Below are positions 37,376 to 58,050 of a stretch of 64,000 nt of DNA, one piece after another (position 1 is the first letter of the stretch; each line of letters opens with the position of its first letter). The notes beneath the pieces were generated by a model. It worked only from the letters and a program-made list of their open reading frames with translations. It made no database searches and had not been told where the DNA came from. The stretch lies in NCBI RefSeq assembly GCF_000373925.1, contig NZ_KB892742.1:57175-121174 (forward strand), given 5' to 3'. The stretch comes from Actinopolymorpha alba DSM 45243 (lineage in GTDB: Bacteria; Actinomycetota; Actinomycetes; Propionibacteriales; Actinopolymorphaceae). The position numbers and the translations under genes were made by a program.

Positions 37376-37951
37376 CTAGCTTCGCACGGCCCGGAGGCCC
37401 TTCGCGGTGCGTACGAGGTCGCGCTCGGCGTAGCGCTCGCCGTTGATGGTCACCGACACCGCGACGCCGGGCGCCTCCCACCAGAAGGCCTCGTCGGCGG
37501 TGCGGTAGCCCGGTCGGCCGTTGTTGTCGAACGCCTTCAGCTTCCACTCGGCGGGGTCGCGCTCGTGGTAGTCGGCGAGGTAGTCGCGAAGTGCCTCGAG
37601 GCTGGTGAGTGAGGCTCCCCGCATCACCTTGACCGTGAGGTCGACGCGGTAGGCGCCGTCCTTGTCAGGTCCGGTCTCCCAGACCCTGCTCCGATGGGTG
37701 ACGCCTTCCCATTCGTACTCGAAATCCGTCACGAGCGAACCAAGCCCTCGTGGCAGGACGCAGATCGCGAAGCCGTCGAGGACGGGTGCGACCGCGCACG
37801 GGTCGCTGTGGCCGGTCACAGCAGGAGGATAGGGGGCCGGTGCGGCGAGTGCTGGTGTGCTGGTCGCACTGGCTCCAACGCATGCGGCGCCGACCATGAG
37901 GCCGACCGTGAGCGCGATTCGTGCCGCCCTGCGAGGTGTCGCCATTGACAT
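37376..37951 (-). CDS. secreted protein of unknown function
   Basis: 191 aa. The start is MSMATPRRAARIAL with GGAGG 5 bases upstream. Signal peptide with Arg-rich n-region and h-region IALTVGLMVGAACVGASA, probable cleavage after ALAAP. Two Cys (DPCAVAPVLDGFAICVLPRG) could form a disulfide. The rest is beta-rich with charged residues (LVTDFEYEWEGVTHRSRVWE, WWEAPGVAVSVTINGERYAERDLV). No family recognised. Confidence 0.75.
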   Translation of the reverse strand: MSMATPRRAARIALTVGLMVGAACVGASATSTPALAAPAPYPPAVTGHSDPCAVAPVLDGFAICVLPRGLGSLVTDFEYEWEGVTHRSRVWETGPDKDGAYRVDLTVKVMRGASLTSLEALRDYLADYHERDPAEWKLKAFDNNGRPGYRTADEAFWWEAPGVAVSVTINGERYAERDLVRTAKGLRAVRS

Positions 37952-38097
37952 CGATTCCTCCAAAGGTTGCTGACGAAGGTGGGTGAAGTGGACGGGTCAT
38001 GAGGGGGATGAAGGTGGTGAGGGTGCCGGCGTGCTCGCGGCCGGCGCCGTCCATGCTCGTGGCCGCGGGGGGCCCGGCGAGGCGGTCGCGTCGCGGC

Positions 38098-38208
38098 TGT
38101 GGACAACGCAGCCGATCGGGAAGCTGTGGACAAAACGTGCACACGCTGGCCCACACGCCACGCCGGAGCACTGGAGGACCTGGTCCCATCAGCGGGCCAT
38201 GTGAACAA
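38098..38208. promoter_or_regulatory. DnaA-box cluster upstream of ybaB
   Basis: Two exact copies of TGTGGACAA (reverse of the DnaA box TTGTCCACA) at 38098-38106 and 38125-38133, 27 bp apart and in the same orientation, plus TGTGAACAA at 38200-38208 with one mismatch. They occupy the 391-base gap between the secreted-protein gene and ybaB-recR. The rest of that gap shows no gene. They could make the ybaB-recR promoter DnaA-responsive. Confidence 0.6.
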
Positions 38209-38342
38209 CTCGTCAGGATTCCCGTCGCGGCAGGGGTCCGGCCGCGCGCTGGGGGTGGGGCATCGTAGGCTCGACGTACGCCGGTCACCCCGCCCGTGAC
38301 GCGGTCGAGCAGCCGCTTGCGGCCGAGACGAGGGAGATCATC

Positions 38343-38687
38343 GTGTTCCCTGGCGGAACGCCCGATATGCAGCAGCTACTTCAGCAGGCGCAGCAGATGC
38401 AGCAGAACCTCCTGTCCGCGCAGGAGGAGCTCGCCCAGGCCGAGGTCAAGGGCACCTCTGGCGGTGGTCTCGTGACCGCGGTCGTCAACGGCGTCGGCGA
38501 GCTGCAGCGCCTGGAGATCAAGCCCGAAGCCTGCGACCCCGACGACACCGAGACCCTTGGTGACCTGGTGGTCGCCGCGGTCCGCGACGCGGCGGGCAAC
38601 GCGCAGGCACTCGCGGCACAGAAGCTTGGCCCGCTCGCCCAAGGCCTCGGCGGCCTTCCTGGTGGGTTGGGTCTCCCGGGCAGCTAG
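38343..38687 (+). CDS. ybaB: YbaB/EbfC-family nucleoid-associated protein
   Basis: 114 aa, GTG start. [35 protein letters not shown] is the Gln-rich helix, followed by [46 protein letters not shown]. The protein dimerises and binds DNA as a tweezer. It is coded just before recR, the usual arrangement; dnaX is 4.5 kb away because other genes intervene. Confidence 0.95.
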
Positions 38688-38724: not shown

Positions 38725-39324
38725 GTGTACGAGGGCGTCGTTCAGGACCTCATTGACGAGCTCGGCCGCCTGCCCGGCATCGGGCCGAAGGGTGCCCAGC
38801 GGATAGCGTTCCATCTCCTCGCCGCTGACCCCGTCGACGTACGCCGCCTGGCCGAGGTGCTGTTGCAGGTCAAGGAAAAGATGCGGTTCTGCGAGGTATG
38901 CGGCAACGTCGCGGAGGAGGAGCGCTGCCGCATCTGCCGCGACACCCGCCGGGACCCGTCCGTGCTCTGCGTCGTCGAGGAGCCGAAGGACGTCGTGGCG
39001 ATCGAGCGCACCCGGGAGTTCCGCGGCCGTTATCACGTACTCGGCGGTGCGATCAGCCCCATCGAAGGGATCGGCCCCGATGACCTTCGGGTGCGTGAGC
39101 TCATGGAACGGCTCGCCGACGGAGCCGTGCAGGAGGTCATCCTGGCGACCGATCCCAACCTCGAAGGCGAGGCAACGGCCACCTACCTGGCCCGCATGCT
39201 GAGCCCGCTGGGCTTGCGCGTCACGAGGCTCGCGAGTGGACTGCCGGTAGGCGGCGATCTGGAGTACGCCGATGAGGTCACGCTGGGCCGTGCGTTCGAA
39301 GGAAGGAGGCTGCTCGATGCCTGA
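38725..39324 (+). CDS. recR: recombination protein RecR
   Basis: 199 aa, GTG start. Helix-hairpin-helix [17 protein letters not shown], zinc finger [18 protein letters not shown], Toprim motifs [16 protein letters not shown] and [15 protein letters not shown], and the C-terminal Walker-B-like part. It works with RecO/RecF to load RecA at gaps. The 3' end overlaps the DUF5063 gene by 8 bases. Confidence 0.96.
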
Positions 39325-56739: not shown

Positions 56740-58050
56740 ATGCGTATGAGTCCCACGGTCGCCCGCCGGGCGTTCCTTCTCGGCGGTCTGGCAATTCCGC
56801 TCCTCGCCTCGTGCGGCGGTCGGATCAGTTTCGGGGGTGACGGCGGTATGCGGCTGGTGGCCGCGGAAGGCGTCAACCGGATCGTGCCCGCGACGGACAC
56901 ACCGGTCGCGGGCACGGTCGACGGCATGACGGCGTTCGGGTACGCCCTGGCAAAGGTGGCCGCCGAGCCGACCGCCAACTTCGTCGCCTCACCGGCGAGC
57001 ATCGCCTACGCGTTCGGCATGGCCCGAGCGGGCGCCCGTGGCGACTCGGCGGCCCAGATCGACCGGGTGCTCGGGTTTCCCTCCGGCGGGCCGCACGCCG
57101 CCCTCAACTCCCTCACCCAGCAGATCGTCACGCTCGACGAGGCGCCGCCGCGCACGTCCGGTAAGACCCGGAAACCGGGGGAGAAGCCCAAGCTCCCGGT
57201 GCTCGCGATCGCCAATGGCCTCTTCGCCCAGCAGGGCTTCGCGATCAAGGACGCGTACCTCCGGATCCTCGCCGAGCAGTACGCCACGGGCGTCCAGACC
57301 CTCGACCTGCGAAGCCCGGACGCCGTGCGCGTCATCAACGACTGGGTACGCGAGCAGACCGCGGAGCGGATCGACAAGCTCTTCGAGTCGCTCACCCCGG
57401 ACACGGTGATGGTCCTGGCGAACGCCGTCTACCTGAAGGCCGACTGGGTGCACGCGTTCGAGCGGTCCGCGACCCGGGACGAGGAGTTCACCCGCGGCGA
57501 CGGCACACCCGTCACGGTGCCGATGATGACGCAGACCGGGCGCCTGCGGTTCGCGCGCGGCAGTGGCTGGCAGGCGGTCGAACTCCCGTACGCGGGCGAG
57601 GAGCTGGCGATGCTGGTCGTCGTACCTTCCGGAAAGTCCCTGGCCACGGATCTACTGGCGCCGGAGGTGCTGCGGGCAGTCGCGACGGCCCTGCGCCCTG
57701 GGCCGGTGACGTTCAGCATGCCCCGGTGGGACTTCGCCACCAAGCTCGACCTCAAACCGTCGTTGGAACGCCTCGGCCTGACCGTGCCGTTCACCGATCG
57801 GGCCGACTTCTCCGGCATTGCCGAGGATCTGTACATCGGCGAGGCGATCCACCGGGCCACCATCACCGTCGACGAGTGGGGTACGGAGGCGGCCGCGGTG
57901 ACCGGCCTGGAGATGCGGATCACCGCGGCACTGCCTCCCGACCCGGCGGCGGTGATCCGCGCGGACCGGGCGTTCGCGTTCGCGATCCTGCACCAGCCGA
58001 CCCGGACGCCGTTGTTCGTCGGCCAGGTGAGCGATCCGGTGCGCGGCTGA
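56740..58050 (+). CDS. serpin-family protease inhibitor, lipoprotein
   Basis: 436 aa from MRMSPTVARRAFLL with GGGAGG upstream. Signal peptide with Arg pair and lipobox IPLLASCGG, so it is likely anchored outside the membrane. Serpin fold: TANFVASPASIAYAFGMARAGARGDSAAQI, ANAVYLKADWVHAFE, RATITVDEWGTEAAAVTGLEMRI (hinge GTEAAAVT) and AFAFAILHQPTRTPLFVGQV. The hinge is of the inhibitory kind. By P17 counting the P1 residue would be Thr in MRITAALPP, suggesting an elastase- or subtilisin-like target (inference). Confidence 0.93.
   Translation: MRMSPTVARRAFLLGGLAIPLLASCGGRISFGGDGGMRLVAAEGVNRIVPATDTPVAGTVDGMTAFGYALAKVAAEPTANFVASPASIAYAFGMARAGARGDSAAQIDRVLGFPSGGPHAALNSLTQQIVTLDEAPPRTSGKTRKPGEKPKLPVLAIANGLFAQQGFAIKDAYLRILAEQYATGVQTLDLRSPDAVRVINDWVREQTAERIDKLFESLTPDTVMVLANAVYLKADWVHAFERSATRDEEFTRGDGTPVTVPMMTQTGRLRFARGSGWQAVELPYAGEELAMLVVVPSGKSLATDLLAPEVLRAVATALRPGPVTFSMPRWDFATKLDLKPSLERLGLTVPFTDRADFSGIAEDLYIGEAIHRATITVDEWGTEAAAVTGLEMRITAALPPDPAAVIRADRAFAFAILHQPTRTPLFVGQVSDPVRG

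Follow-up and report, generated by a model that had tools for sequence, protein, structure and literature searches.

Competence boxes are known from other phyla, among them the streptococcal ComE direct repeats and cin-box and the gammaproteobacterial CRP-S sites. The actinobacterial element described here resembles these boxes as a cis-element common to com, dprA, ssbB, recA, and pilus genes, and the ComE sites further as spaced direct repeats of about 9 bp; it departs from them in its sequence, its 27-bp pitch, its CGGC core, and its association with actinobacterial Tad pilus genes. Mycobacterial PafBC and RecA-NDp promoters overlap with it in targets such as recA, but they differ in sequence, and the element lies further upstream. 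In Micrococcus luteus, tad genes are required for transformation, and tad genes with comEA/comEC are frequent in Actinobacteria (PMC4322843, in part). That combination of comEA-comEC with tad genes as an uptake machine is shared by the regulon proposed below, and the searched part of the paper holds no promoter motif. The upstream signals or regulatory cascade of M. luteus transformation were still described as remaining to be identified in 2026 (PMC12849477, in part). The words "motif" and "DnaA" are absent from the searched parts of PMC12849477, PMC4322843, and PMC6667448, as is "DnaA" from that of PMC8467076, and full-text literature searches, with most subscription journals outside their range, brought up no mention of the 37-bp element among the titles and abstracts listed. 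In Borrelia, DnaA activates dnaX-ebfC (ebfC being ybaB; PMC9879097, in part) from a promoter that resembles our site in its 9-mer half-site and its replication-linked neighbour gene. Unlike DnaA promoters, the element has two extended half-sites at a fixed pitch and a fixed distance from the −10, and it stands at uptake genes.

We analysed a window of 64,000 nucleotides (positions 57,175 to 121,174 of contig NZ_KB892742.1) from Actinopolymorpha alba DSM 45243, whose assembly comprises 7.98 Mb in 127 contigs. The original prediction had drawn attention to two exact TGTGGACAA boxes 27 bp apart and a third box with one mismatch, all within a non-coding gap of 391 bases, and had held the pair to be beyond chance. 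Each of these observations was borne out. The pair occupies 38098–38106 and 38125–38133 of the plus strand, the third box reads TGTGAACAA, and the gap runs from the ATG of a divergent gene (37951, minus strand) to the GTG of ybaB (38343). The pattern TGTGGAYAA-N{2,32}-TGTGGAYAA matched only twice in the whole A. alba genome, with 0 matches for the reversed control (46 genomes searched). The exact 9-mer alone is mildly enriched in this genome, with 36 matches against 21 for the reversed control; comparison of the match lists places 10 of the 36 in copies of the 37-bp element and none on C34, the contig holding dnaA. Genes were called with a codon-usage script, and the locus comprises the following features.

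38097–38133, minus strand: 37-bp activator-type element TTGTCCACAGCTTCCCGATCGGCTGCGTTGTCCACAG, 0 mismatches
38125–38133, minus strand: box 1, distal half-site TTGTCCACA, exact, centred about −83 from the inferred transcription start
38098–38106, minus strand: box 2, proximal half-site TTGTCCACA, exact, centred about −56 from the inferred transcription start
38111–38114, minus strand: conserved CGGC core, 4 bp before box 2, defined by column conservation
38053–38058, minus strand: inferred −10 for divergent transcription, GAGCAT (xAnnnT), whose A and T stand exactly at element positions +77 and +81
37376–37951, minus strand: likely target, a small secreted-protein gene (191 aa), with ribosome site GGAGGA at 37956–37961
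38200–38208, plus strand: third box TGTGAACAA, outside the element, chance-level and not conserved
38250–38271, plus strand: promoter-like block of ybaB-recR, TGGGGGTG-N8-TAGGCT, with TAGGCT conserved in eight of eight family genomes, G007 included
38343–38687, plus strand: ybaB, nucleoid-associated protein (TIGR00103)
38725–39324, plus strand: recR, recombination mediator (TIGR00615)

The third box was ruled out as a part of the element. Boxes with at most one mismatch are at chance level in the 64 kb (6.5 expected, 4 seen), and TTGTTCACA occurs in the 600 bp before ybaB in none of the seven other genomes of the organism's family.

The pair itself makes up one instance of a 37-bp element, TTGTCCACAG-N9-CGGC-N4-TTGTCCACAG, of which about ten copies are scattered over the A. 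alba genome. We surveyed the organism's own family (f1, probably Actinopolymorphaceae, eight genomes) and, in the same order, the Kribbella family (38 genomes). In the own family the core pattern with at most 3 mismatches gave 61 sites against 0 for the reversed control, and box pairs with at most 2 mismatches numbered 72 against 3 control matches; sites from a single genus do not count as independent observations. Among these 61 and the 35 sites of a class-wide sample, the window copy alone has no mismatch. All six exact box pairs in the family have a gap of 18, and when the first box was loosened and gaps of 5–32 were allowed, 14 of 17 matches again had a gap of 18. The core, read on the other strand as GCCG, appears in 48–51 of 55 sites per column among sites outside the relative G007 that were collected without using the core; the elements of G007 carry a similar block shifted by about a base.

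Alignment of 43 element sites in the TTGTCCACAG direction placed an xAnnnT hexamer downstream, its A falling on +77 and its T on +81; a clear −35 was not seen in these sites. In a test set made up of the 72 pairs with at most 2 mismatches and four of the seven sites found by the core pattern alone (74 of 76 readable), the hexamer lay at this distance exactly in 53 of the 74 readable sites and within 1 bp in 68. It was exact in nine of 11 A. alba sites and shifted in two, and exact in 16 of 17 G007 sites and shifted in one. In other families it was exact in 10 of the 25 tested sites (of 26), against a background of 37/1475 at other offsets. Two genes of the genome G471 have their ATG start codon at +88, which would suit leaderless messages. 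Given the constant distance from element to −10, the box centres would lie at about −83 and −56, an upstream-activator geometry; in the window, the −10 GAGCAT predicts a start near 38046.

This geometry bears on the suggestion that the boxes form a passive DnaA-titration site away from oriC. Two consensus boxes are indeed present away from oriC, and in six relatives assembled as single contigs (G002–G007, with G004 taken as circular) recR lies about 0.4–1.3 Mb from dnaA. Titration does not, however, predict a −10 at a constant distance before DNA-uptake genes, and because of this promoter geometry we reject it, leaving it a negligible probability.

The genes that follow the element point to DNA uptake and processing. 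In A. alba, sites precede the window secreted-protein gene, an SSB paralogue, a DUF4192 gene (divergent to dinB), a UvrD helicase gene, two genes for nuclease-like proteins (Pfam matches none or below cut-off), a DUF4244 pilin gene with a TadE protein, ssd with Tad motor genes, comEA-comEC, a gene for an OB-fold SSB-like protein, and yraN-comM (gap 19); for one further pair, which lacks the core (C1:305264), no clear target was seen. Family models support ComEA (HHH_3, SLBB), ComEC (Competence), YraN (UPF0102), YifB/ComM, DprA, Ssd, TadA (T2SSE), DUF4244, TadE, SSB, RecA, DinB, UvrD, DUF4192, and M23. Relatives add recA as a target (G003, G005, and G007, read directly), and G007 adds an M23 hydrolase gene beside rpsB and an SbcD-like phosphoesterase gene. 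Taken with the census and the promoter geometry, these targets make it likely that the two boxes serve as an upstream-activator site for a regulon of natural transformation and DNA processing. Against this reading, the A. alba ComEA falls below the cut-offs of the NCBIfam comEA models, recA adjoins no element site in the A. alba genome, and the targets in the family include genes outside DNA uptake (DUF4192, a SARP-type regulator, ESX-like proteins, and unknowns).

Several of the targets would also suit a DNA-damage regulon with uptake genes as side targets: the element stands at recA, at DUF4192 divergent to dinB, and at genes for the UvrD helicase, the SbcD-like phosphoesterase, and SSB paralogues. 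However, comEA-comEC, the Tad motor, the Flp-type pilin, and the M23 hydrolase are not repair genes, and recA has a separate PafBC-like block at the same −10, so that we regard a damage regulon as distinctly unlikely. In the three recA promoters read, the element and this block (for example TGTCGGTG-N8-TAACGT, which we take to be PafBC-like) share a common −10. As a separate observation, element copies adjoin small ESX/WXG-like genes, named by eye, at eight loci in several genomes of the family; a link of DNA uptake to the killing of neighbours is possible.

The element reaches beyond the family, within limits. In a class-wide sample of 394 genomes, sites occurred in 15 (3 control matches in all), with nine sites in A. 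alba and 26 in 14 other genomes. Nine of the 26 outside sites face yraN-comM (four), comEA (two), ssb (two), or a DUF4244 pilin gene (one), and another faces an M23 hydrolase gene; yraN-comM, comEA, ssb, pilin, and M23 thus recur as orthologous targets in other families. In the genome G158, the yraN-comM operon runs on into dprA (PF02481). Ten further sites face genes whose products resemble nucleases or AbiEi; a single one of these products passes a Pfam cut-off, and several gave no match or lay outside the scan. Six sites have no fitting target, two of these adjoining DUF222 genes but facing away. With matches in only 14 of the 393 other genomes, the element either has a narrow distribution beyond the family or changes in sequence there. 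Three features expected of a natural-competence element are present: a motif before uptake and processing genes far above control, a constant position relative to the promoter, and conservation at orthologous genes in other families (9 of 26 sites, 14 genomes).

The boxes had been read as a possible DnaA-controlled promoter of ybaB-recR, with their conservation in relatives as a check. Conservation is clear: in the 600 bp before ybaB covered by the survey, at least one box occurs in seven of the eight family genomes, and the full element in six. Box 2 is TTGTCCACA in all seven box-bearing genomes; box 1, 27 bp away, matches exactly in the window alone, reads TTCTCCACA in three genomes and TTGTCCACG in one, and is weaker in two. 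The secreted-protein gene has a divergent orthologue beside ybaB in seven of the eight genomes; six of these loci carry the full element, and the seventh, in G006, shows only box 2. The eighth genome, G007, has the end of an MFS gene 36 bp upstream of ybaB, and both the secreted-protein gene and the boxes are absent there; this one genome keeps ybaB-recR and its conserved −10-like TAGGCT without any box, so that the element does not track ybaB-recR across relatives. The ybaB-recR block TGGGGGTG-N8-TAGGCT itself presumably resembles PafBC-type promoters.

Element copies at comEA, yraN, the SSB paralogue, ssd, the pilin gene, and recA are all oriented toward the gene, and the same rule points the window copy at the divergent gene for the secreted protein and away from ybaB-recR. 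Together with the joint absence of boxes and secreted-protein gene in G007, this makes the secreted protein the likely target, and the window element most likely switches on that gene rather than ybaB-recR, with an additional effect on ybaB-recR being possible. Thus the regulatory-looking, conserved site of the original prediction stands, and the target suggested for it does not. The 191-aa protein, judged secreted by eye from its N-terminus, has no Pfam or NCBIfam match and no solved-structure relative (best E 0.32); a single-sequence structure model (mean pLDDT 37.7) was discarded.

Boxes before ybaB in seven of eight family genomes and in 37 of 38 Kribbella-family genomes (again in the 600 bp upstream) would suit a DnaA-controlled promoter of ybaB-recR, a reading that we hold to be very improbable, since the element points at the divergent gene, the ybaB −10 is present in G007 where no box occurs, and the Kribbella cluster, with other spacings, mixed orientation, and dnaX upstream, need not be the same site. 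Among genomes of families f2 and f4, none of the 63 with a located ybaB (64 of 101 retrieved) had a box before it, and 96 further ybaB loci from named genomes and the class sample yielded a box in one Kribbella and two metagenome-derived genomes. We treated the Kribbella cluster separately because its spacing and orientation differ and because dnaX (named by eye) precedes ybaB. In the dnaX-ybaB gap of that family, mostly minus-strand TTATCCACA and plus-strand boxes are densely clustered, often about 12 or 33 bp apart, and by analogy with Borrelia dnaX-ebfC this cluster may be a true DnaA site. Another conserved multi-box cluster of Kribbella lies beside unknown genes (five loci read); its distance from dnaA is about 500 kb in the five genomes compared, all assembled as single contigs. 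Two other candidates were set aside: one Kribbella pair, about 45 kb away from dnaA, falls within a gene for a short-chain dehydrogenase (gene calls and inspection by eye), and inverted box pairs repeated in G005, G002, G004, and G001 are probably coding, judged by eye from their repeated reading frame.

We then considered whether the element's regulator is DnaA or a dedicated protein. The half-site consensus across elements, [TC][TC]GTCCACA, is presumably the Streptomyces DnaA box, and the two exact TTGTCCACA half-sites of the window fit the 9-mer consensus; as the half-site equals an actinobacterial DnaA box, DnaA remains a candidate. Boxes at the oriC of the family (TTGTCCCCA, TCGTCCACA, TTATCCACA, and others) look like element half-sites, and G follows 26 of 32 of them, as it follows the element boxes, so we dropped this G as a mark against DnaA. 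Beyond the 9-mer the two sets part. No same-strand pair 26–28 bp apart occurs among the 32 oriC boxes of seven genomes, and CGGC precedes 0/32 oriC boxes vs 23/43 elements, GCC at the same place 1/32 vs 21/43, and G-N-C 3/32 vs 30/43. The extended motif is thus not that of the family oriC boxes: with respect to DnaA as the predicted binder, the 9-mer agrees, whereas the flanking conserved bases are rare at these boxes. Likewise, of the 30 exact A. alba boxes examined (36 in all), 20 stand singly, and 19 of those 20 lack a partner at 27 bp. By the gene calls, 14 of these 20 single boxes are intergenic, so ordinary DnaA sites may exist too. The oriC region of the family holds few consensus boxes, and TTGTCCCCA is present in all seven of the oriC regions read, often 12 bp from TGATCCACA.

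DnaA itself could be the activator on both boxes, linking replication state to DNA uptake. The half-site consensus, the likeness to oriC boxes with their shared G, and the Borrelia precedent speak for it, and it keeps a minor chance against the missing 26–28 bp same-strand pairs and CGGC at oriC, the rarity of G-N-C there, and the partnerless single boxes. It is unlikely that natural transformation in these Actinobacteria would have DnaA as its master activator, acting through paired boxes at −83/−56 and coupling uptake, recombination, and perhaps neighbour killing (M23 hydrolase, ESX-like proteins) to replication state. We favour a dedicated regulator, with DnaA kept as the main rival.

As we picture it from the sequence comparisons, a dedicated protein whose half-site resembles a DnaA box would bind both boxes, arranged as a direct repeat, and recruit RNA polymerase to promoters without a clear −35. 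Its predicted regulon would span DNA-uptake, pilus, recombination, single-strand-binding, cell-wall-hydrolase, and nuclease-like genes. With its fixed promoter geometry, the 37-bp element offers a bait for the regulator and a first handle on how transformation may be switched on in these bacteria. It also yields a testable target list that includes uncharacterised members (the window secreted protein, DUF4192, and the nuclease-like proteins), and it could predict which soil actinobacteria may be transformable.
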